Program-made: the position numbers and the translations under genes
IMG/VR virus record: IMGVR_UViG_3300031565_003627
Coordinates: 1 to 30,023 of that record
DNA: 30,023 bases
Direction: 5' to 3' (one strand)
Origin: a virus
Part shown: positions 6,492 through 30,023 of the stretch, piece after piece
Layout: each line of letters begins with the position of its first letter
Numbering within the stretch: position 1 is the stretch's first letter
The notes under the pieces: model-generated
Seen by the model: the letters and a program-made list of their open reading frames with translations, nothing else
What the model was told of the DNA's origin: nothing
The model's database searches: none

Positions 6492-6831
6492 CGGCTACGG
6501 CTACGGCGACGGCTTCGGCTCCGGCTTCGGCTACGGCGACGGCTTCGGCTCCGGCTTCGGCTACGGCGACGGCTTCGGCGACGGCTACGGCTACGGCGAC
6601 GGCTTCGGCGACGGCTTCGGCTACGGCGACGGAGAAGCCACGACCACGGCGGGCAAATATGTCGTCGCGATTCACCGACCATACGGCGTGATATCAGCCG
6701 GGTGCCAAGCAGGCACGCTCTCGTGGTGGCGTGAGCGCTGGGAGGAGATCGCGCGAGACGAGGGCGTCTCGATGGACGAGGCGCGGACAGCTTTGCAGGC
6801 GGTCGAGGCCGCCATGGGAGGAGCGACATGA
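6478..6831 (+). CDS. Gly-X dipeptide repeat protein (117 aa)
   Basis: Residues 6-52 are a strict run of 23 Gly-X dipeptides in which X is only Tyr, Phe, Asp or Ser (7, 7, 7 and 2 times). A short Thr-rich hinge follows, then a globular domain of about 55 residues, KYVVAIHRPYGVISAGCQAG followed by TLSWWRERWEEIARDEGVS. The N-terminal part should be disordered, and aromatic-Gly sequences of this kind can self-associate. The C-terminal domain looks real, with mixed strand and helix, but I cannot name it. The ATG has GGAGAGG upstream and overlaps the previous gene by 14 nt; the stop overlaps the next ATG. Function unknown. Confidence 0.7.
   Translation: MPGSSGYGYGDGFGSGFGYGDGFGSGFGYGDGFGDGYGYGDGFGDGFGYGDGEATTTAGKYVVAIHRPYGVISAGCQAGTLSWWRERWEEIARDEGVSMDEARTALQAVEAAMGGAT
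6493..6633 (+). repeat. GGC-NNC hexamer repeat array (141 bp)
   Basis: Every odd codon is GGC and every even codon is TAC, TTC, GAC or TCC, so codon choice is uniform at DNA level. Longer 30-bp units are repeated, for example the Y-D-F-S-F block occurs twice at the start. This indicates growth by slippage or unequal crossing-over and predicts length variation between related phages. Confidence 0.85.
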
Positions 6832-7172
6832 GCAACATCCAGCAGTGGTACCGGGCCATGGGATTCGATCGCAGCGCCAAGGCCACCATCATCGAGGACA
6901 TGATGGCGGAGCGCCTCGACGCGGAGCGCGGAAACGCGCGCCACAGGGAGATCCGAAACCGGCTCGCCGATGCCGAGGTCCAGCTCTCCGAGACGATGCG
7001 CGAGCTCAGGCAGCTCCGCCGGCGGGAGGACTACCTGACGGCCACCGAGCGACAGCTCCGCGGGATCATCGAGGAGCTGTCCTCGCAGTGCCGCGGTGCC
7101 AAGGACATCGACACGCAGGCGATGGCGCAGCGGCACCGGGAGCGGCTGGCGGACGTGCTGGGGGGCGAGTGA
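6828..7172 (+). CDS. Hypothetical coiled-coil protein (114 aa)
   Basis: The protein is almost entirely helical and highly charged. Residues about 20-90 (AERLDAERGNARHREIRNRL, then heptad-like LRQLRRREDYLTATERQLR) suggest a coiled coil. No enzymatic motif, membrane segment or Cys pair is seen. Its ATG overlaps the previous stop as ATGA and its stop overlaps the start of the exonuclease gene, so it is produced with the recombination pair. It could be a structural partner of one of these proteins, but that is inference from position. Confidence 0.65.
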   Translation: MSNIQQWYRAMGFDRSAKATIIEDMMAERLDAERGNARHREIRNRLADAEVQLSETMRELRQLRRREDYLTATERQLRGIIEELSSQCRGAKDIDTQAMAQRHRERLADVLGGE

Positions 7173-8200
7173 TGACTGACATGCTCTGCGACGCCCACAA
7201 GCTCACCAACGACGTCAACCTCCAGTCCACCAACCCGGCCCGCTGGCATGAGCTGCGGCGCGGCGGCATCGGCGGAAGCGACGTCCCCAAGCTCTGCGGG
7301 GCCTACGGTGACGACCCGCCCGAGTGGGGCACGCCGCTGGCCGTCTATCGCTCCAAGACCGAGCCAGTCGAGGAGCGCCGCGAGCTCGACAACGTGGCGG
7401 CGGCGATCGGCACCGCGATGGAGGATCTCCTCGCCCGCCTCTACGAGCAGACGACGGGATTGGTGACGATCAAAGCGCCGATGTGCTGCGACCCTGCCCG
7501 GCCGTGGAGGCGGGCCTCGGTCGACCGGCTCGTCTACGAGGAGGCAGCGGACTTGTCGAAGAGCCGGCCCGTCGCCGTGCTCGAGTTGAAGCGCCCGACG
7601 GCGTGGAATCAGACGTGGAAGGGCGACGACGCGCCGGCCTACGCCCGCATGCAGGGCCAGTGGTACGCGAGCATCCTGGGGCTGCCACGGGTCGACATCT
7701 TCGCCCTCGTCAGCGACACGACGCCGAGGCTCTTTACGTACCCGGCCGACCCGGAGCTGGCCGAGCTGCTCACCGCGGAGTGCGAGACCTTCTGGACGCA
7801 GCACGTCATCGCAAAGGAGCCGCCCCTGCCGGTGGCGTCCGAGCGTCGCGCGTGGCTCGGTGATCGGTACCCGGAGATCACCGCGCCGATGGCCTCGGCG
7901 ACGATGTACCAGGAGGCCCTCGCGGAGTCGCTCCAGCTGCTCGGGCGGCGGCAGAAGCTGCTCGACACGCGCAAGGCCGAGGTCACCGACGAGCTGCTCC
8001 AGAGCCTGCGGGGAGGCGAGGGCGTGAAAGGCGCCGGCTGGAGCTTCACCTGGCGCGAGTCGGACGGCAGGGTGGCATGGAAGGCCCTGGCCGAGACGCT
8101 GCTGCCACAGGTCGACGACGAGCAGCAGGCCTTCCTGCTGCGGCAATTCACCGGGCGGCCGTCGCGGTCGCCGAGATACAACCCGAAGAGGAGCAAGTGA
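7172..8200 (+). CDS. YqaJ-type alkaline exonuclease (recombination)
   Basis: The 342 residues fit the lambda-exonuclease/YqaJ branch of the PD-(D/E)XK fold. Visible motifs are WHELRRGGIGGSDVPKLCG (25-43), GTAMEDLLARLYE (80-92) with Glu84, ASVDRLV with Asp118, VLELK (Glu138, Lys140) and a QGQWY helix (161-165). The expected reaction is 5'-to-3' degradation of one strand of double-stranded ends, leaving single strands for the annealase encoded next. The C-terminal third (from about 235) is an extra helical region before a basic tail ending NPKRSK. The ATG at 7172 overlaps the upstream stop; a longer frame back to 6731 runs through the preceding gene and is rejected. Confidence 0.9.
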   Translation: MTDMLCDAHKLTNDVNLQSTNPARWHELRRGGIGGSDVPKLCGAYGDDPPEWGTPLAVYRSKTEPVEERRELDNVAAAIGTAMEDLLARLYEQTTGLVTIKAPMCCDPARPWRRASVDRLVYEEAADLSKSRPVAVLELKRPTAWNQTWKGDDAPAYARMQGQWYASILGLPRVDIFALVSDTTPRLFTYPADPELAELLTAECETFWTQHVIAKEPPLPVASERRAWLGDRYPEITAPMASATMYQEALAESLQLLGRRQKLLDTRKAEVTDELLQSLRGGEGVKGAGWSFTWRESDGRVAWKALAETLLPQVDDEQQAFLLRQFTGRPSRSPRYNPKRSK

Positions 8201-8997
8201 TGACAACCGAAATGCCCCCCGACTGGGGCGAGACAGACAAGCCACAGCAGCAGCAGCACCCTGCTCCGGCAAGGCAGCCACGCAGCACCTTGGCTCTACT
8301 CGCTGACGCCTACCTCGCCGGGGCCGGCGTCGACGTCCTGGCTGGCCTCGTGCCAGCTGGAGTCGAGCAGGCCATGGTGGCCAACGCCTTCCTGGCGACC
8401 GTCGCGGCCAACCCTGACCTGATGACGTGCACGTACCAGAGCCTCGAGCAGTGCCTGCGGGACTGCGCGCGGATGGGGCTGCTGCCGGGGCCGGCCGGCC
8501 ATATCTACCTCATCCCGAGGTCCGGGAAGGCCCAGGCCCAGGTCGGCTACCAGGGCCTCATCGCGCTGATGAAGCGCAGCGCCGGCGTGGTCCGCGTCGA
8601 GACGGGGGCGATCCATGAGCATGATGTCTTCGTCGCGCGGCGCGGAAGCAACCCGGAATTCGCCCACGAGCCCAACTGGAAGGGCGACCGCGGGGAGGCT
8701 GTCAGCTGGTACGCCGTGGCGTACTTTGCGGACGGCGGCCCGCCCCAATTCGAGGTGATGACACGCGACGAGATCGAAGCCATCCGCGACGCACATGGCA
8801 ACAAGCGGCTCTGGGCGGCGCACTTCGAGGAGAAGGCGCGCATCACCGTCGTCCGCAGGCTCGCCAAGTGGATCGGCCAGGACGACGCCCTGGGCCACGC
8901 CTTCCGCATGATGGACGCCGGGGAGGCTCCCGCGGCGCAGACTCAACCCACCGGCCGCCGGGACGCGATCCGCGCCCGCTTGGAGTCCAGGCCATGA
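8200..8997 (+). CDS. recT-like: RecT-family single-strand annealing protein
   Basis: This 265-aa protein carries the RecT core: SLEQCLRDCARMGLLPGPAG, then HIYLIPRSGKAQAQVGYQGL, IALMKRSAGVVRVETGAIH and a later VMTRDEIEAIRDAHGN segment. The N-terminal 35 residues are Gln/Pro-rich and probably disordered. RecT proteins coat single-stranded DNA and anneal complementary strands. With the adjacent exonuclease this forms a two-component system like RecET or lambda Red. The ATG overlaps the exonuclease stop in TGATG. Length and motif order are normal for the family. Confidence 0.93.
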   Translation: MTTEMPPDWGETDKPQQQQHPAPARQPRSTLALLADAYLAGAGVDVLAGLVPAGVEQAMVANAFLATVAANPDLMTCTYQSLEQCLRDCARMGLLPGPAGHIYLIPRSGKAQAQVGYQGLIALMKRSAGVVRVETGAIHEHDVFVARRGSNPEFAHEPNWKGDRGEAVSWYAVAYFADGGPPQFEVMTRDEIEAIRDAHGNKRLWAAHFEEKARITVVRRLAKWIGQDDALGHAFRMMDAGEAPAAQTQPTGRRDAIRARLESRP

Positions 8998-9602
8998 GCG
9001 ACTACCAAGAGATCACCAGCCTCATCGAGTCCGCTCTCATGCACCCAGAGAAGGGCGATGTCGTGGTGGAGCTCGCGCAGCGGATGCGCCAGCTCCCGCA
9101 ACTACGCCGTGTCCTCGACGCTGCCCGCAACGAGTACGAGCAGCTCGTGAGCGGAATCGACACATGCTTCCGCGAGCTGCTCGGCGAGCCCCGGCATGAC
9201 GAGCCTGCCAGCCCGGCCCCCGAGCGGATGACGCTGGCCGAGGCCAGGGCATGGCTCCGCAGCTCGAGCTACCCGGTGCCCATCGGCCGCGGCTCACTCG
9301 AGCGCTGCGATGCGATGATCGCGCTGATCACCAGCGGCGGCGAGCTCGACTTCGACGCCTTCGAGCCGCTCGACTGGAGCGACGCACAGAAGGCCCCAGA
9401 ATCGCCCCAGGACGCATCGGAGCCTCCGGGTGACACCGAGGGTGCCGCGGACGCCTCCGAGCCCGCAGAATCGAATCAGGACTCCCAGTGCGTGATTCCT
9501 GAGCCGGTCGGAGTCGAGGAGCAGCCCCTGCTCGTGATCCCGGTGACCACCTGCCCCGAGTGCGCGCAGCCCGTCGAGCGCTGCGACTGCGTGCCTTACT
9601 GA
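8994..9602 (+). CDS. Hypothetical protein with C-terminal Cys cluster (202 aa)
   Basis: The N-terminal half (MSDYQEITSLIESALMHPEK onward to about residue 130) is helical. Residues about 130-180 form an acidic, Pro/Ser/Glu-rich disordered region. The end reads CPECAQPVERCDC (C187, C190, C197, C199) and probably binds zinc. I do not recognise the family. The ATG overlaps the RecT stop as ATGA and the stop overlaps the resolvase ATG, so it is part of the recombination set. An acidic tail followed by a zinc knuckle would suit a protein-protein adaptor, but there is no direct evidence. Confidence 0.65.
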   Translation: MSDYQEITSLIESALMHPEKGDVVVELAQRMRQLPQLRRVLDAARNEYEQLVSGIDTCFRELLGEPRHDEPASPAPERMTLAEARAWLRSSSYPVPIGRGSLERCDAMIALITSGGELDFDAFEPLDWSDAQKAPESPQDASEPPGDTEGAADASEPAESNQDSQCVIPEPVGVEEQPLLVIPVTTCPECAQPVERCDCVPY

Positions 9603-10132
9603 TGGCTACCATCCTAGCCATAGACCCCGGATTCCGCCGTACCGGATGGGTCGTCGTCGACGTGCATGGCGACGGCATCATCCCGGTGGAGTGCGGCCTC
9701 ATCGAGACGCAGAAGGCCACCGGCAAGGTCCTGGTCGCCGTCGACGACTGGGAGTGCTGCCGCATCATCACCCGCGAGCTCATCGCCGTCGCGTGCATCC
9801 ACGAGGCCAGGTGCATCGTGGTCGAGGCGCCGGCCGGGAGCAAGAGCAGCCGGGCCGCGAAGTGCATGGCTTTGGCCTTCGCCTGCTGCGCGGCTGTGGC
9901 GGAGGTGTACGAGCGCCCGGCCGTGCTGGTGAGCGCCGACCGCGCGAAGAAGGCGGCCACCGGGCGCAGGAACGCCTCGAAAGACGACGTGGCCGCAGCG
10001 GTGGCGCACCTCCTGCCGCCGGACTGGGGCGACCCGTGGCCGCGCAGCAAGCGGGAGCACATCACGGACGCCGCGGCGCTCGTGCTCGGTGCGTGGGAGT
10101 CGGACGTGGTGCGGATGGTGAGGGCGCTGTGA
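9602..10132 (+). CDS. RuvC-like Holliday junction resolvase
   Basis: This 176-aa protein of the RNase H fold shows the four acidic/His positions of RuvC-type enzymes: Asp8 in ILAIDPGFRRTGW, Glu75 in CIVVEAPAGSK, and His153/Asp156 in REHITDAAAL near the C-terminus. A basic helix precedes the last motif. RuvC resolves four-way junctions by paired nicks; phage versions trim branched replication and recombination products before packaging. It lies directly after the exonuclease/RecT pair, which supports this. The start ATG overlaps the previous stop by 1 nt (TGATG). Confidence 0.88.
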   Translation: MATILAIDPGFRRTGWVVVDVHGDGIIPVECGLIETQKATGKVLVAVDDWECCRIITRELIAVACIHEARCIVVEAPAGSKSSRAAKCMALAFACCAAVAEVYERPAVLVSADRAKKAATGRRNASKDDVAAAVAHLLPPDWGDPWPRSKREHITDAAALVLGAWESDVVRMVRAL

Positions 10133-10203
10133 TGGACGCGGTGCTGGAGGACATGGCGGAGCGCGTCAGGCGCCTGGGGGGGGGGCGGGATGAGCTGCTG
10201 TAG
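10132..10203 (+). CDS. 23-aa ORF ending just after a ten-G tract
   Basis: It encodes MDAVLEDMAERVRRLGGGRD plus three residues. The ATG overlaps the resolvase stop as TGATG, as at other junctions of this operon, so translation starts here are expected. The G tract at 10176-10185 encodes the GGG. If one G is lost, or a ribosome moves +1, the frame continues without a stop into the Cys-rich ORF that begins at 10190 and gives a single 61-aa protein. The true gene may therefore be 10132-10318 with a homopolymer sequencing error, a phase-variable tract or a frameshift. Confidence 0.5.
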   Translation: MDAVLEDMAERVRRLGGGRDELL

Positions 10204-10318
10204 CTGCGTATGGCTCGAGGCCGATGGGTGGTGGTGTCGCCTCTGGGAGTGCGCCGCGCTGACCCGCGGGGAGCGGTGCGCACGATGGTCCAGGCGTGAA
10301 AACGAAGGCGATGGATGA
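10190..10318 (+). CDS. Cys/Trp-rich small protein (42 aa, or C-terminal part of a 61-aa protein)
   Basis: It reads MSCCSCVWLEADGWWCRLWE, followed by CAALTRGERCARW and a charged end. Six cysteines and five tryptophans in 42 residues suggest a small metal-binding fold or a redox peptide. It fills an otherwise empty gap between the 23-aa ORF and the methyltransferase gene, and its stop overlaps that gene's ATG. It has no good ribosome site of its own: the upstream bases are the G tract. This favours production as a fusion with the 23-aa ORF. The family is unrecognised. Confidence 0.5.
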   Translation: MSCCSCVWLEADGWWCRLWECAALTRGERCARWSRRENEGDG

Positions 10319-11499
10319 TGGAGCTGGGGCGCCACGTACTCCACTGCGGGGACTGCCTGGAAGTCATGGCGACGCTGGAACCTGAGAGCGTGGACGCGGT
10401 GGTCACGGACCCGCCATACGGCCTCGGGTTCATGGGCAAGGCTTGGGATGCCCTGCCACCTGGGCGGGAGTGGGCGGAAGCCTGTCTTCGGGTGCTGAAG
10501 CCTGGCGGCCACCTGGTAGCCTTCGGGGGGCAGCGCACGATCCACCGCCTGACCTGCGCGCTGGAAGATGGTGGCTGGGAGATTCGAGACCAACTCCAGT
10601 GGCTCCAGTGGCAGGGGTTTCCGAAGTCGCTGGACGTGTCGAAGGCGATCGACGCTGCGGCGGGGGCGAAGCGCCGGGTGGTGGGCTACAAGGCCGGCAC
10701 CATGGCGCACCCTGACACGGGGCGCACCGACATGCCGGGCAAGGCGGTGGGCGTGAAGCAGACCGGGTGCGCGGTGCCAGTCACCGCCCCCGCCACCGCC
10801 GAAGCCCGCCAGTGGTCCGGGTGGGGAACAGCGCTGAAGCCATGCTCCGAGCCTGCGGTGCTGGCCAGGAAGCCAATGGACGGGACGGTGGCGGCCAACG
10901 TGCTGAGGTGGGGGACAGGTGGGATCAACGTGGACGGATGCCGATACCGCCCCGGTGACATGGCCTGGCCAGGGCCGCAGAACACGGACCCGGGGACGCG
11001 GTGCAATCGGCGGGACGCTGCGGGACGCTGCCAGGGACACGGCAACGCGGGGCTGAGTACGTCTGGGCAAACCTTCCACGGACCGGAGTCCGCGCCTGCC
11101 GGGTGGTTCCCTTCCAACGTGTACGCCTGCCCGAAGGCCAGCACCGCGGAACGCGAGGCGGGATGCGAAGGTCTGCGCCAGGTGACACCAGGCGAGGTTA
11201 CGGGTCGCAAACCAGGAAGCGCCGGTCTCGACAACCCGAGAGCAGGTATGACAGGATCTCGGTCTCGAGGCAACATGCACCCGACCGTGAAGCCACTGCG
11301 GCTGATGCGCTGGCTGGTCCGCCTGGTCACGCCACCGGGCGGGTTGGTTTTGGAGCCGTTCGCGGGGTCTGGCACCACGCTGCTCGCGTGCGAGGCGGAG
11401 CGCGTCCGCTGCCTGGCCATCGAGCGGGAGCCAGACTACTGCGAGATTATCCGGGCACGCTGGCTGGCTTCGACTCGCCAGCGCGGGCTGGAACTGTGA
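10315..11499 (+). CDS. DNA methyltransferase (N6-adenine or N4-cytosine), beta-class order
   Basis: The protein has 394 residues. Catalytic motif DPPYGL is at 32-37, within SVDAVVTDPPYG. The SAM-binding motif LEPFAGSGTTLLACE is at 346-360, preceded by HPTVKPLRLMRWLVRL. Motif IV before motif I is the beta-class order. DPPY is commoner in adenine-N6 enzymes, but N4-cytosine enzymes cannot be excluded. The long middle (about 105-320) is the target-recognition region and is rich in Gly and Cys. No restriction endonuclease is adjacent, so this is probably an orphan phage enzyme protecting against host restriction or modifying late DNA. Two ATG codons in tandem open the gene; the first overlaps the previous stop. 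Confidence 0.9.
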   Translation: MMELGRHVLHCGDCLEVMATLEPESVDAVVTDPPYGLGFMGKAWDALPPGREWAEACLRVLKPGGHLVAFGGQRTIHRLTCALEDGGWEIRDQLQWLQWQGFPKSLDVSKAIDAAAGAKRRVVGYKAGTMAHPDTGRTDMPGKAVGVKQTGCAVPVTAPATAEARQWSGWGTALKPCSEPAVLARKPMDGTVAANVLRWGTGGINVDGCRYRPGDMAWPGPQNTDPGTRCNRRDAAGRCQGHGNAGLSTSGQTFHGPESAPAGWFPSNVYACPKASTAEREAGCEGLRQVTPGEVTGRKPGSAGLDNPRAGMTGSRSRGNMHPTVKPLRLMRWLVRLVTPPGGLVLEPFAGSGTTLLACEAERVRCLAIEREPDYCEIIRARWLASTRQRGLEL

Positions 11500-11531
11500 C
11501 CACATCAAAGCCGAATGGGCAGGAGATCCTG

Positions 11532-11729
11532 ATGAACAGCTGGACATGCCAAGAGCCCCACTGCGACGGCGACATCGTCTGCGCCCAGGTCGACGTGACA
11601 GACGGCCAGTATGAGTGCGGCCATCACATCTGGCTGTGGCGAGGCTACTGCAATCGGTGCGCAGTAGTGCGCAGGCTCCCAGTGCTGCGATGTCCGCAGT
11701 GCTGCGGGCTCCGACCGGAGGGTGAGTGA
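11532..11729 (+). CDS. Zinc-ribbon-like small protein (65 aa)
   Basis: Nine cysteines and two adjacent histidines are spread over 65 residues: CQEPHC (6, 11), C17, ECGHH (29-32), YCNRC (40, 43) and CPQCC (54, 57, 58). This spacing suggests two zinc sites. The ATG at 11532 is preceded by AGGAGA with good spacing; a GTG at 11497 is a less likely alternative. Its stop overlaps the next ATG. No named family is recognised; a nucleic-acid or protein contact role is plausible for such ribbons. Confidence 0.6.
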   Translation: MNSWTCQEPHCDGDIVCAQVDVTDGQYECGHHIWLWRGYCNRCAVVRRLPVLRCPQCCGLRPEGE

Positions 11730-18454: not shown

Positions 18455-20005
18455 CTAGTCGAGTGGTACCCAGTCGTAATAGAGCATCGTGCCGTAGTAG
18501 TCGAGGAGGCCGACGCCGGCGCCGTCCGCGATGACCTGCATCTCGACGCCGATCATGTCGCCCGCAGCCACGAAGGCCGGCGCGGCGAGCGTGACGGTGG
18601 CGGTGTGCCAGCGGATGCCACCGGCGCCGTTGTCGACGCCGCGCTTTACTGCGGTGTTGTGGCTGGCGTCGTACTCGCCGTCGACAAGCCCAGCGATCGC
18701 AGCCTTCGCGGGCATGCCGGCGCCGTCAGCCGGCACCGAGCGGGTGTAGACCACGGCCCGCGCGTCCCCGACTGGCCCAGTCGTGATCTTGTAGACGCTC
18801 TTGTAGCCGGTGATCTTGACGCCGCGCGAGGCCGTCCCGCGCGTCATGAGCGGGGCCTCGGTGTACCAGTCGCTGCCGGTGACCGAGCCGGTGCGGCGCA
18901 CAGCAAAGTTATTGCCCGAGCCGTTGACAGTGTTCCACACCCCGCCAGACTTCTCCCCGCCCATGAAGCTGACCCACAGCTGGCCGTCGGTGAGCGTCTG
19001 CGCGGGCACGGCGTCGTCGCCTAGCGGGGAGTGCGTCGCAGCGTGCGGGTCCGCCAATGCCAGCGTAGCACCTCCGAGCAGCGATCCACCGAAGCGGCCC
19101 AGCGTGCCATGGTCGGCCCGGAAGGAGGACGCCGGGCCAGAGAAGTCGCCGGAAATCGAGCAGCTCGACAGGTAGCGTGTGCCGGCCGCAGTGACCGTGA
19201 TCGCGGTGAAGCTCGAATCCGTCTCATCGTCGATCTTTGCGACGGTGACGGCAGCCCCAAAGCGATTATGGGCTCCTCTGTACATGGTCGCCGTCGGCGC
19301 GTTGACCGCCCCGGACGTCTCGGACTGCTCGAGGAAAAGCCGCGCCGTGGCTGTCTGTCCACTGAGATCGATCGCGCTGGCAGCCCCCATACCCACGACT
19401 GCGGCCGACTCGATGTAGAGATCCTGCTGCTTGCCTGCGCCCACGTCGGAAAGCACGACGGCGCCGGAAATGAGCCAGTTGGCGACGTCGAAGCGGCTCT
19501 GGATTCTGAGCTGCGTGGACGCCCCTGCCGCCGCTGCCGCCGGATCTGCGATGCGCGAGATCGATCGGGGAGACGTCGGGATCACGCCAAGCGTCACGGA
19601 CCCATCGGCTACCAGGTGCCAGGCGCCTCCGTCCGTCTGCGGGATCGTGACCGCCTCATCATAGGTACCGCGCTTGACGAAGACGACGCGGTCCGCCGCG
19701 CTGCCACTCGCCGCGGCCGCAGCGGCAATGTCGGTGATGGCCGCCTGAATCGTGGTGTAAGGATTGGCCGCGCTGCCGTTTGGGGCCGAGTCGGTGTTGC
19801 TCGAGTCGACGTACCGCTCGAGGCCGAGAGCCTCCCGGCTATCGACCCTTGCCCACGCCGTCGCGCCATCGGTATTGCGCCAGGTCTCGCGGCCGTCTTC
19901 GGAGTAGGCGGACGATCCGATGATGCCGGTGACGGCCCCGCTCGGGTCCGCGTCGACGATGAGGATCTCGGTGTCGCCGAGGGGCTCGCGGTGTTTCACT
20001 GCCAT
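18455..20005 (-). CDS. Tail spike/fibre-like protein with beta-helix signature (516 aa)
   Basis: After the family A head (MAVKHREPLGDTEILIVDAD), residues about 75-135 read GSAANPYTTIQAAITDIAAA and later VVFVKRGTYDEAVTIPQTDG. This is the entry pattern of pectate-lyase-type right-handed beta helices found in tail spikes. The beta-rich run continues to about residue 290. The C-terminal about 200 residues (from DGQLWVSFMGGEKSGGVWNT) look like a separate jelly-roll-like cap. A host polysaccharide-degrading or -binding role is plausible; catalytic residues cannot be assigned. CAGGAGG lies upstream of the ATG. It is the largest of the five fibre-like genes. Confidence 0.7.
   Translation of the reverse strand: MAVKHREPLGDTEILIVDADPSGAVTGIIGSSAYSEDGRETWRNTDGATAWARVDSREALGLERYVDSSNTDSAPNGSAANPYTTIQAAITDIAAAAAASGSAADRVVFVKRGTYDEAVTIPQTDGGAWHLVADGSVTLGVIPTSPRSISRIADPAAAAAGASTQLRIQSRFDVANWLISGAVVLSDVGAGKQQDLYIESAAVVGMGAASAIDLSGQTATARLFLEQSETSGAVNAPTATMYRGAHNRFGAAVTVAKIDDETDSSFTAITVTAAGTRYLSSCSISGDFSGPASSFRADHGTLGRFGGSLLGGATLALADPHAATHSPLGDDAVPAQTLTDGQLWVSFMGGEKSGGVWNTVNGSGNNFAVRRTGSVTGSDWYTEAPLMTRGTASRGVKITGYKSVYKITTGPVGDARAVVYTRSVPADGAGMPAKAAIAGLVDGEYDASHNTAVKRGVDNGAGGIRWHTATVTLAAPAFVAAGDMIGVEMQVIADGAGVGLLDYYGTMLYYDWVPLD
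19938..19986 (-). repeat. 49-bp exact direct repeat, copy 2
   Basis: Identical to 18378-18426. It covers the same part of the head module in the 516-aa fibre gene, starting about 20 nt after its ATG. Homologous exchange between the two copies would delete or fuse the intervening gene, a ready route to fibre swapping. Confidence 0.9.
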
Positions 20006-26816: not shown

Positions 26817-29554
26817 GCCGCCTTCCCGTCGAAGCCGGTCCCGGCGTTGCTCCGGCTGATGACGTCGAGCTGCGTCGCGACCTCCTGCGGCGTGCCGCCG
26901 ATGACAGCAGCCGGGGAGTTGATGTTGATGACGGTGCGAGCCCCACGATCCGCCCCGCCTGGTGGAGCCTGCGCAGTGGTGCGCCGCATGCCCGCGGATG
27001 CACCGCCCCCCGATGACGCTTTCTTGCCGGCCGAGCTGTCACCGGCCGCGGCGAAGTAGAGCGCCGCCGCGATGGCGTGCATGGCTCCGCCCGCGTAGTC
27101 CTCGAGCGCGAAAGACGCGGCCGATGCTGCCGTCTCGATGAGGCCCATGATGATGGCTTGGGCCTGCTGGTCAGAAATGACGGCAGCCGTCAGCCTGGCC
27201 GACACCGAAACCGCGGAGTTGATCGCGGCCGCCTGCGCCTTCGACCCCTTCTCAAAGGCCCCGGACAAGAGCGCCACCGTATCCGCGATCTCCTGGCCGC
27301 TCTCCCCGACCGCCCCGGCCATGCGGCCGAAGGCCGCTAGCGCCTCGTCCTGCGATGCTGCTGCGCGCTGGGCGGCGTCCGCGATCATGTCGTAGGCCGC
27401 GGCGATGGCGGCTGCATTCTCGTCCGCCTCAGCGCCGAGGTTGAGTTTCTGCTCCTCCTCGCCGCTCACGTACCCAGCGCCGGCCGCATCGGAGATAGCG
27501 CCGCGCTTCCGCTCGCCTTCCGTCGGACCGAGCCCGAGGGCCTCGCGCGCTGCCGTGCGGGCTGCGACGGCCTGGTCCAGTTCTTTCTCGCCGATCTCGA
27601 AGAGGCGCTCCTCGCGCCGGACGCTCTCCTCCTGGATGCGCGACATCTCGTAGAAGAGCGTCAAGCGCTCCTGCGCGATGCGATTGAAGAAAACCTCGGA
27701 ATCAATGCGCTTTTTCGCCCGCTCCTCGGCCAGCGCCTCGAGCCGGAGCGCTGAGTCTAGGTGCGCCAGCCGCTTCCGATCCTCGTCCGTCAGCTCGCCC
27801 TTGAGCCGCAGCTGCAGCTCGAGGAGCTTGCTCTCGTCCTCGGTGCCTAGCGTCTCGGCGCGCTTGCGACGGCCGCCTCCGCCTCCGCCGCTGCGTGGCT
27901 TCATCGCCTTGGCGGACTCAACAATCATCTGGCCGTTGAGCAGCCCCAACAGCTCGCGGTTGAGATCCACGAGCCGTTTGGCGTCCGCCACGTTATCGCG
28001 GCTCAGCTTCGCCTTCTCGGCCTCGATGACCTTAATTCGGACTTGAAGGTCCGAAATACCAGCAAGGTGTCGAAGGGACAGCTCCTGCGCGTCGATCTGC
28101 AGCAGCTGCACGTCGAGCGCCTCCGTGGCAGCATCGGCAGCGCGCTCCTCGAATCGAATCCGGTAGGCGACGTCCTGGGTCGCGGCCTCGGCCACCGTCG
28201 CGAGCTCCTCGCGGATGTCGAGCTGCTCTTTCAAGAGCTGGCTGTAGGCGCGCTCCATCTCCGACACGACGTTGATGCCGCGCATCACGCGCGCGGCTTT
28301 CTCCTCATCGGTGCGGTTGAGGACCGCGAGCAACTTGCGCTGCCGCTCGAGCGACTCGACGACGGCGTCCTCTTGCGCCTTGCGCACCGCGGCGCCGGCC
28401 CGGCTCTTCTCGCCCTCGGTGGCCGTCCTGTGGAGCGACGCTGCGAAGGCATCCATCGCCGCTGCGCTTCGCGTTGTCTGCGCCTCCAACGAGAAGAGAT
28501 CCGCCGTGCTCGCGTTGACGATCGCGTTGAGGTTTTCCGCGAAGGTCGTGCCACCGAAGACCGCCTCGCCAAGCGCCTTGACCGCGAGGAGCGCTGGCCC
28601 TGCTGCGATCTCTAGGTAGCTGCCATAGGCTGACGCCAGGGTCTCGATGGGGCCCGCGGCCCGTAGCGTCTCGCCTGTCGTCTGCTGCAGCGCCCGTTCC
28701 ATCGCGTTGAGCTGCGTCTCGACGATGCCCAGCTCCTCGAGCGCTCCGACTGCGACGCGGGAAAAGCCGGCCTTGAACTGGTCGCCAAAGTTTTCCCAGG
28801 CGTTGCCCAGCCTCTGCACCGACGCGGTCTGCGAGTTGAGGAGGTCGACGTTGACGTTGGACGCTTCGAGCTTCTCGAGGGCCACGGCCATGAGCCCGGC
28901 CTTTTTTTCCGCTGCCGTAAGCTCGCTCGAGAACTTGCCCGTCGTTTCCGTTGCCCGCGCCGTCGCCTCTGATAGCCGGATCTGCAGGCCGAGGTTGTCG
29001 AGGATCTGAGGCGACTCGCGCGCAAGCCCGGTGGTGAGCGACTGGGTCAGGAATCCGACGTCCTGCCCGGTGCGCAGCGCTGTCTTCGCGACGGCCTCTA
29101 GCGCACGATCGATCTCGTCGAGCGGGATGCCAAAGCTCTTGAACATCGCGGCCGACTTCACGATCTCCTTGTCCGAGATCATCCCCGCGCTGCTCTTGCG
29201 GACCTTGTCCATGGTGGCGCCGAGCCCCGCCACGTCCTTCTCGAGAATTCGCATCTGGTCGCTGAGCATGGCGCCGCTCTTGACCCACTCGCCCACCGAT
29301 GAGAAGGCGTCGGTCACCGTGCGCACGCCAGCGGCCACCAGGCCGAGCTTGCCGAGCGCGGCCCCAGCCGCCGTCTTGAAGCCCGCGAAGCTCTGCGACC
29401 CGGCGGACATCGCCCGCGCGATCGCGCTACCGGACCGCGTGGCCGACGCCTCGAGTTGCTTCAGGTCGGTCCCGGCCGCCTTGATGGTGGCGCTCGCCTT
29501 GTTGTCGCCGGTCAGCGTGATCCTGATGCTGACCTGTCCACTCGTCAGCGCCAT
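26813..29554 (-). CDS. Tail tape measure protein (913 aa)
   Basis: The long, mostly helical protein has features of tape measures. The beginning, MALTSGQVSIRITLTGDNKA then SATIKAAGTDLKQLEASATR, is a typical tape-measure N-terminus. Ala-rich hydrophobic helices occur at about 55-75 and near the C-terminus (SAASFALEDYAGGAMHAIAA). Long charged coiled coils fill about 370-720. The length would set a tail of roughly 130 nm by the usual rule of about 0.15 nm per residue (an estimate from known phages). There is no recognised lytic domain. TAGGCGG lies before the ATG, and the two tail-assembly ORFs lie directly upstream, as expected. Confidence 0.9.
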   Translation of the reverse strand: MALTSGQVSIRITLTGDNKASATIKAAGTDLKQLEASATRSGSAIARAMSAGSQSFAGFKTAAGAALGKLGLVAAGVRTVTDAFSSVGEWVKSGAMLSDQMRILEKDVAGLGATMDKVRKSSAGMISDKEIVKSAAMFKSFGIPLDEIDRALEAVAKTALRTGQDVGFLTQSLTTGLARESPQILDNLGLQIRLSEATARATETTGKFSSELTAAEKKAGLMAVALEKLEASNVNVDLLNSQTASVQRLGNAWENFGDQFKAGFSRVAVGALEELGIVETQLNAMERALQQTTGETLRAAGPIETLASAYGSYLEIAAGPALLAVKALGEAVFGGTTFAENLNAIVNASTADLFSLEAQTTRSAAAMDAFAASLHRTATEGEKSRAGAAVRKAQEDAVVESLERQRKLLAVLNRTDEEKAARVMRGINVVSEMERAYSQLLKEQLDIREELATVAEAATQDVAYRIRFEERAADAATEALDVQLLQIDAQELSLRHLAGISDLQVRIKVIEAEKAKLSRDNVADAKRLVDLNRELLGLLNGQMIVESAKAMKPRSGGGGGGRRKRAETLGTEDESKLLELQLRLKGELTDEDRKRLAHLDSALRLEALAEERAKKRIDSEVFFNRIAQERLTLFYEMSRIQEESVRREERLFEIGEKELDQAVAARTAAREALGLGPTEGERKRGAISDAAGAGYVSGEEEQKLNLGAEADENAAAIAAAYDMIADAAQRAAASQDEALAAFGRMAGAVGESGQEIADTVALLSGAFEKGSKAQAAAINSAVSVSARLTAAVISDQQAQAIIMGLIETAASAASFALEDYAGGAMHAIAAALYFAAAGDSSAGKKASSGGGASAGMRRTTAQAPPGGADRGARTVININSPAAVIGGTPQEVATQLDVISRSNAGTGFDGKAA

Positions 29555-29564
29555 GACGTACCGC

Positions 29565-29957
29565 CTAGCCGGGGTTGAGCTTGCGACCCTTGCGCTCCGA
29601 CTCCTCGCGCATGTGCTGGTCCATGGCCGGGACGAGCGCCTCGAGCGCGTCGACTACCCATGCCGCGTACCGATGCGGCCAGCCCGCCAGCTGGCTCGCG
29701 TGGCGCGAGTTGTAGAGGCCCACGATGTACTGCCACCATGGCTCGCGCACGAGCCGGTTGGGGCACCGCGGCCAGTAATCGTACCCGCCGGGGGCGGCCA
29801 GGAAGTCGGTCCGCTCGCAGGCCGAGCACGGGGAGCAGGTCAGATGGTACAGCCCCGACAGCCGCGTCTGGTCGACCTCCCACGCGGCAAGCTGTCTCCA
29901 TCGGTTCTGCCTCCAGTCGCGGATGCCATCATCCGTCAGCGAGTCGCTCGTAGGCTC
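29565..29957 (-). CDS. Downstream tail-assembly ORF, no standard start codon (frameshift candidate)
   Basis: The frame is open from the right edge of the window to the TAG at 29565 and contains a coherent protein: GIRDWRQNRWRQLAAWEVDQ, a CSPCSAC zinc-like cluster, YDYWPRCPNRLVREPWWQYI and a helical end. There is no ATG, and the only GTG (29750) would delete the conserved-looking first half. It lies directly before the tape measure, where many long-tailed phages make a G/GT pair by ribosomal frameshift. I take 29957 as the first codon after a proposed +1 shift. A CTG at 29939 is the alternative start. Fold and exact boundary are uncertain; that the frame is coding is likely. Confidence 0.65.
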   Translation of the reverse strand, partial: EPTSDSLTDDGIRDWRQNRWRQLAAWEVDQTRLSGLYHLTCSPCSACERTDFLAAPGGYDYWPRCPNRLVREPWWQYIVGLYNSRHASQLAGWPHRYAAWVVDALEALVPAMDQHMREESERKGRKLNPG

Positions 29958-30023
29958 GAAAGTAACGCCCCTGGCTCTCCTGCGGATCCTCGCCGCTGCT
30001 GATGGCCAGGATGAAGCGCCCGA
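29929..30023 (-). CDS. C-terminus of an upstream tail-assembly protein (partial)
   Basis: Only the last 30 codons are in the window (GRFILAISSGEDPQESQGRY, then FRAYERLADG and TGA). High GC at third positions in most codons supports it as a real coding frame. It overlaps the downstream tail-assembly ORF over the whole visible length, in a different frame (+1 relative to it). By position it would be the shorter chaperone of a G/GT-type pair for tape-measure folding. The 5' part is beyond the window, so family identity cannot be judged. Confidence 0.6.
   Translation of the reverse strand, partial: GRFILAISSGEDPQESQGRYFRAYERLADG
29958..29964 (-). promoter_or_regulatory. Candidate +1 frameshift site TTT-CGA
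   Basis: In the upstream frame the codons are TAC TTT CGA GCC. A phenylalanine tRNA on TTT can re-pair one base on as TTC, its better match, while the usually slow CGA waits. This moves ribosomes into the downstream tail-assembly frame. The layout is like the UUU-CGU +1 site of influenza PA-X. The sequence is seen; the activity is inferred. Confidence 0.4.

Follow-up and report, generated by a model that had tools for sequence, protein, structure and literature searches.

The tail module at the right end of the virus record IMGVR_UViG_3300031565_003627 probably encodes a tail assembly chaperone pair of the gpG/gpGT type that is made by +1 slippage at UUU_CGA. Judged from the sequence, this is the best explanation of an overlap between two reading frames, here called frame A and frame B, directly ahead of the tape measure gene. 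The record consists of a single contig of 30,023 bases, which we refer to as the window; its G+C content is 62-71% in each 1-kb interval, and the tail module occupies its right end on the minus strand. The frames themselves, a switch of coding from one to the other and the lack of an ordinary start are direct observations, as are the homology and synteny with one relative and the -1 arrangements in other relatives. The initial annotation had described a tail-assembly overlap likely using a +1 shift at TTT_CGA, and the direction (+1 or -2), the site and the chaperone role that it gave stand as the best-supported reading, short of proof. The features discussed below are the following.

29929..30023, minus strand: 3' end of the upstream gene in frame A, G-like, 30 codons and the stop codon TGA at 29931-29929, recognized from its translation and coding-like codon usage; the 5' part is beyond the contig end
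29956..29961, minus strand: putative +1 shift site TTT_CGA, in frame A, with TTT at 29961-29959 and CGA at 29958-29956
29966..29988, minus strand: Shine-Dalgarno-like AGGAG and AGGGG, possible stimulators, with duplex energies of -7.4 and -5.7 kcal/mol
29565..29960, minus strand: frame-B extension, a T-like domain from TTC at 29960 to TAG at 29567-29565, recognized from the frames, codon usage and lack of an ordinary start
29655..29786, minus strand: block homologous to the pre-tape-measure ORF of the closest relative (GYDYWPRCPNR...LAGWPHRYAAWV), tblastn 33% identity over 45 aa
26813..29554, minus strand: tape measure protein, 913 aa, resembling annotated Porphyromonas phage tape measures and that of the closest relative

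Two reading frames ahead of the tape measure gene

Frame A, with codons starting at 30021, 30018 and so on, reads GRFILAISSGEDPQESQGRYFRAYERLADG and then stops at the TGA. Frame B, with codons starting at 30023, 30020 and so on, is +1 (equally -2) relative to frame A and is open from the contig edge at 30023 to its TAG, so that, as originally claimed, it is open throughout its overlap with the upstream gene. It ends at 29565 and the tape measure starts at 29554, which places frame B directly upstream of the tape measure. No ATG, GTG or TTG occurs in frame B from the contig edge until the GTG at 29750, in agreement with the earlier statement that the body of this ORF has no such start ahead of it; CTG codons are found at 29939, 29861, 29852, 29843 and 29801. 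When TTTC is read as a single phenylalanine, frames A and B are joined with no stop, and the suggestion that TTT-CGA at 29961-29956 permits a +1 move into the right frame was thus correct. At this G+C content the bare openness of frame B and its missing start over the 22-codon overlap are weak evidence; both are present in 37% of the +1-frame 22-codon stretches inside the phage's own genes.

Searches of PHROGs, Pfam and NCBIfam gave no match to the frame-B extension, and the 30 visible codons of frame A have no detectable similarity to other G genes, the remainder of that gene being beyond the contig end. Because such families are very divergent, a family match of the extension is not a defining requirement for a chaperone. 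Its absence lowers only the claim of membership in gpG/gpGT, and that membership is unproven. The N-terminal region of the tape measure also resembles a hypothetical protein of a Rhodobacteraceae phage, and the genes that follow the tape measure in the tail module have no confidently named families in protein family searches.

Coding switches from frame A to frame B inside the overlap

A codon model was built from 14 of the window's ORFs. In it, the 21 codons that precede TTT_CGA score 0.61 bits per codon in frame A (real genes, 0.54) and -0.56 bits per codon in frame B (non-coding frames, -0.57). After TTT_CGA, frame B is coding-like at 0.47 bits per codon over 130 codons, and treating it as coding as far as the contig edge carries a penalty of about 25 bits. 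Both frames are coding, and the switch between them is inside the overlap. The best A to B switch point is at about 29979-29934, with the likelihood varying by only a few bits across that range. The codon-usage optimum is a few codons downstream of TTT_CGA and the site itself is 2.5 bits below it, so TTT_CGA is compatible with codon usage and is not singled out by it.

The main rival explanation is that an error of one base, made in assembly or sequencing close to the contig end, puts the frames in +1 register, and that the true phage either shifts by -1 at an ordinary site or has one fused gene. The contig ends only about 65 nt beyond the junction, and -1 is the direction in the relatives that we examined, both of which would fit an error, but the codon usage of frame A is coding-like right up to TTT_CGA, a plausible +1 site falls within the switch zone, and the overlap has no homopolymer longer than 4 bases, and on balance we consider an error unlikely.

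A single near relative with the same gene order

The only near relative that we found is a 25-kb virus contig, IMGVR_UViG_3300030451_006112 (L006). Its tape measure is 48% identical to that of the window over 164 aa, and a downstream tail protein matches over 302 aa (E 7e-20). Directly before the L006 tape measure there is a homologue of the frame-B body, so that both contigs have the T-like domain first, the tape measure next and then the downstream tail protein. Frame B and the L006 ORF align with a Smith-Waterman score of 69, compared with 27.6 (sd 4.7) for shuffled sequences, and 0/5000 shuffles reach 69. The body of frame B, first described as conserved-looking, is therefore conserved, on the evidence of this one relative. 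Given that the homologous block (29786-29655) begins upstream of GTG 29750, a start there would cut the domain, and ordinary initiation cannot make it. With a homologue at the same position in L006 and no ordinary start in the window, normal initiation is excluded, and since the coding switch also brackets TTT_CGA, the +1/-2 reading is best supported.

Another way to express frame B would be as a separate gene with a non-standard start, for example CTG 29861 or CTG 29939. CTG 29861 precedes the conserved block and has GGGAGG upstream (-10.5 kcal/mol), but this is about 12-14 nt away and frame B has coding-like codon usage upstream of that CTG, and CTG 29939 is without a usable Shine-Dalgarno sequence. 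Elsewhere in the window, the starts that we considered use ATG or GTG, and most have a well-spaced Shine-Dalgarno sequence. In L006, a TTG (2960) that follows the G stop and precedes the conserved block makes independent initiation of T possible in that phage, which lends this alternative some plausibility, whereas most relatives have shift sites. We regard a separate gene as improbable.

In L006, T is in the -1 frame relative to G, in contrast to +1 in the window, and the T-like ORF is open throughout the G gene (L006:2525-3253). The L006 G/T pair has no canonical slippery heptamer, only an AAAAA run (GGA_AAA_ATC), and its codon usage favors a switch nearer the G stop. Comparing homologues for retention of TTT-CGA came down to one homologue, with T in the other (-1) frame. 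We propose tentatively, as something close to an even possibility, that the direction of frameshifting has flipped within one homologous T-domain family, with -1 in L006 and +1 at UUU_CGA in the window. Structure prediction of frame B with L006 had a mean pLDDT of 47 and was set aside.

The candidate shift site

At TTT_CGA, the P-site TTT can re-pair to TTC in the +1 frame with CGA waiting in the A site, which is the arrangement looked for in programmed +1 shifting, and +1 shifts in bacteria are said to be especially likely at UUU_Ynn (PMC5009743). Across the 30-codon overlap, full re-pairing at +1 is available to TTT and to no other frame-A codon. TTT is 27 nt from the frame-A stop, and the mean site-to-stop distance in annotated phage cases is given as 26 nt in the PRFect study (PMC10274946). 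Within the phage's own genes, TTT_Y is present in 1.4% of 13-codon stretches and 3.0% of 30-codon stretches, and TTT_CGN does not occur in about 6,470 codons. A fully re-pairing homotriplet of any kind is found in 21-42% of comparable stretches of these genes, so TTT_CGA alone is suggestive and is not proof. GAG, the A-site codon after the shift, is used 45 times per 1000 and is five times commoner than CGA, the codon waiting before it (8.9 per 1000); for forward shifts, PRFect requires the post-shift codon to be commoner than the pre-shift one (PMC10274946). CGA is not especially rare in the codon usage of the phage, and its slowness in the host is an assumption.

Of the two Shine-Dalgarno-like stretches upstream of the site, AGGGG is separated from TTT by 6 nt, which differs from the arrangement in prfB, where the spacing between the Shine-Dalgarno-like stretch and the shift site is 3 nt. 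No stimulatory RNA structure stands out downstream of TTT_CGA (z 0.58 and 0.34). Fusion by a -2 shift, which is documented for gpGT of phage Mu (PMC5009743; PMC3498833) and would reach the identical frame as pointed out in the initial annotation, is very improbable here because no frame-A codon in the 30-codon overlap re-pairs fully two bases back, the best being AGC at 29976, which moves to AGA and mismatches at the third base.

Proposed mechanism

With +1 slippage at UUU_CGA, the overlap would serve as the G/GT junction in a pair of tail assembly chaperones. Most ribosomes would read frame A to the TGA at 29931-29929 and make a short, G-like chaperone. A minority, held up at CGA with Phe-tRNA on UUU, would slip one base forward. 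The tRNA would then pair with UUC, the next codon read would be GAG, and translation would proceed in frame B as far as 29565. The GT-like product would then be the chaperone extended by about 130 residues, with the junction ...GRYF-EPTSDS.... If lambda is a guide, the short form may coat the tape measure and the extension may recruit tail tube subunits. We infer that the shift occurs, the exact codon at which it does so, its efficiency and the chaperone function.

Relation to known frameshifted chaperones and shift motifs

The gpG/gpGT tail assembly chaperones of lambda and other long-tailed phages were reportedly described by Xu, Hendrix and Duda in 2004. Long-tailed phages need frameshifted chaperone pairs to assemble their tails. 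As in the window, the lambda-type arrangement has a start-less ORF immediately before the tape measure that overlaps the 3' end of the upstream gene and can be reached only by frameshifting (PMC5009743). The usual shift there is -1, whereas the frame in the window is +1/-2, and we found no sequence similarity between known T domains and the extension in the window. Tail chaperone shifts of -1, -2 and +1 have all been reported already, and in the haloarchaeal virus HSTV-2 a +1 shift is called "very likely" at the tail chaperone gene pair (PMC5009743). The actinophage training set of PRFect has 350 forward and 2,368 backward positive sites (PMC10274946). In HSTV-2 and the forward actinophage cases, as in the window, a forward shift is proposed at the tail chaperone pair; the phages are unrelated and the likeness is in shift direction.

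The motif itself is known from elsewhere. The influenza A PA-X site is UUU_CGU, and Phe-tRNA pairs better with UUC (PMC3498833); the +1 motif of amalgaviruses is UUU_CGN (PMC9559581). Both have UUU_C at the P site and an arginine CGN codon in the A site, as does the window. These are eukaryotic viruses and the genes are different, so only the shift motif is alike. If the flip in direction is true, a phage tail chaperone would be using this motif, and selection would appear to keep the product ratio and not the shift mechanism. A forward case beside a homologous backward one would provide a natural test of which trait is conserved, the slip direction and site or the product ratio only. We consider the window to be of moderate interest because its nearest relative apparently reaches a homologous domain by shifting the other way. 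It also shows a route to assigning a start-less, family-less ORF before a tape measure, which annotation pipelines miss.

Frameshift direction in more distant relatives

No close relatives of the frame-B body were found in viral contigs, genome contigs, phages or plasmids, and when the tape measure and two tail genes downstream were searched one at a time, no relatives turned up in viral contigs. A tape-measure profile (A1) detected 80 virus loci, L006 included; narrower profiles recovered only L006 again, or nothing in genomes. In 19 representative G/T pairs before related tape measures, which include the Rhodobacteraceae phage LS06, the T ORF was scored as -1 in 17, one of which (L083) is a doubtful pair. 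This is consistent with the earlier statement that frameshifted G/GT pairs at this position are established and shift mostly by -1. Most of the 17 have heptamers such as A_AAA_AAC, C_CCT_TTT, T_TTT_TTA, A_AAA_AAG or similar, and a few (L006, L031, L083) have no canonical heptamer; the pre-tape-measure pair at L031:2520-3190 is thus another -1 pair that has no canonical X_XXY_YYZ heptamer. Two automatic +1 calls were rejected. For L032 the frame had been mis-picked, and the locus carries an ORF in the -1 frame that belongs to the family seen in its neighbors; for L061 the call was not real and the gene arrangement differs.

The T ORFs of L007, L076, L031, L077 and L081 have no sequence similarity to frame B, and that of L009 is marginal (13/1000 shuffles). 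A resemblance of frame B to the T ORF of LS06, seen by eye as a pattern of cysteines and aromatic residues, was no better than shuffles and was dropped. Given the lack of detectable similarity to frame B, the T domains of these relatives speak for architecture and not for descent. We also noted that in Rhodobacteraceae phage LS06-2018-MD06 (OP947162) the G-like gene (L002:3715-4652) is annotated as 'ribonucleotide reductase', and that the annotation misses the frameshifted T ORF, which has an AAAAAAA site, or breaks it up into small hypothetical, unnamed genes.

Other genes in the window

Genes for a RecE-like exonuclease, a RecT-like annealing protein and a DNA methyltransferase are found at 6731-11499 on the plus strand, opposite to the tail module. 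A minus-strand ORF of 739 aa at 9328-11547 runs antisense to the methyltransferase gene; it matches no family and is probably an artefact of high G+C. At 18455-20005, a 516-aa protein weakly matches a tail-protein family (phrog_4577, E 5e-5) and, more weakly still, pectinesterase.
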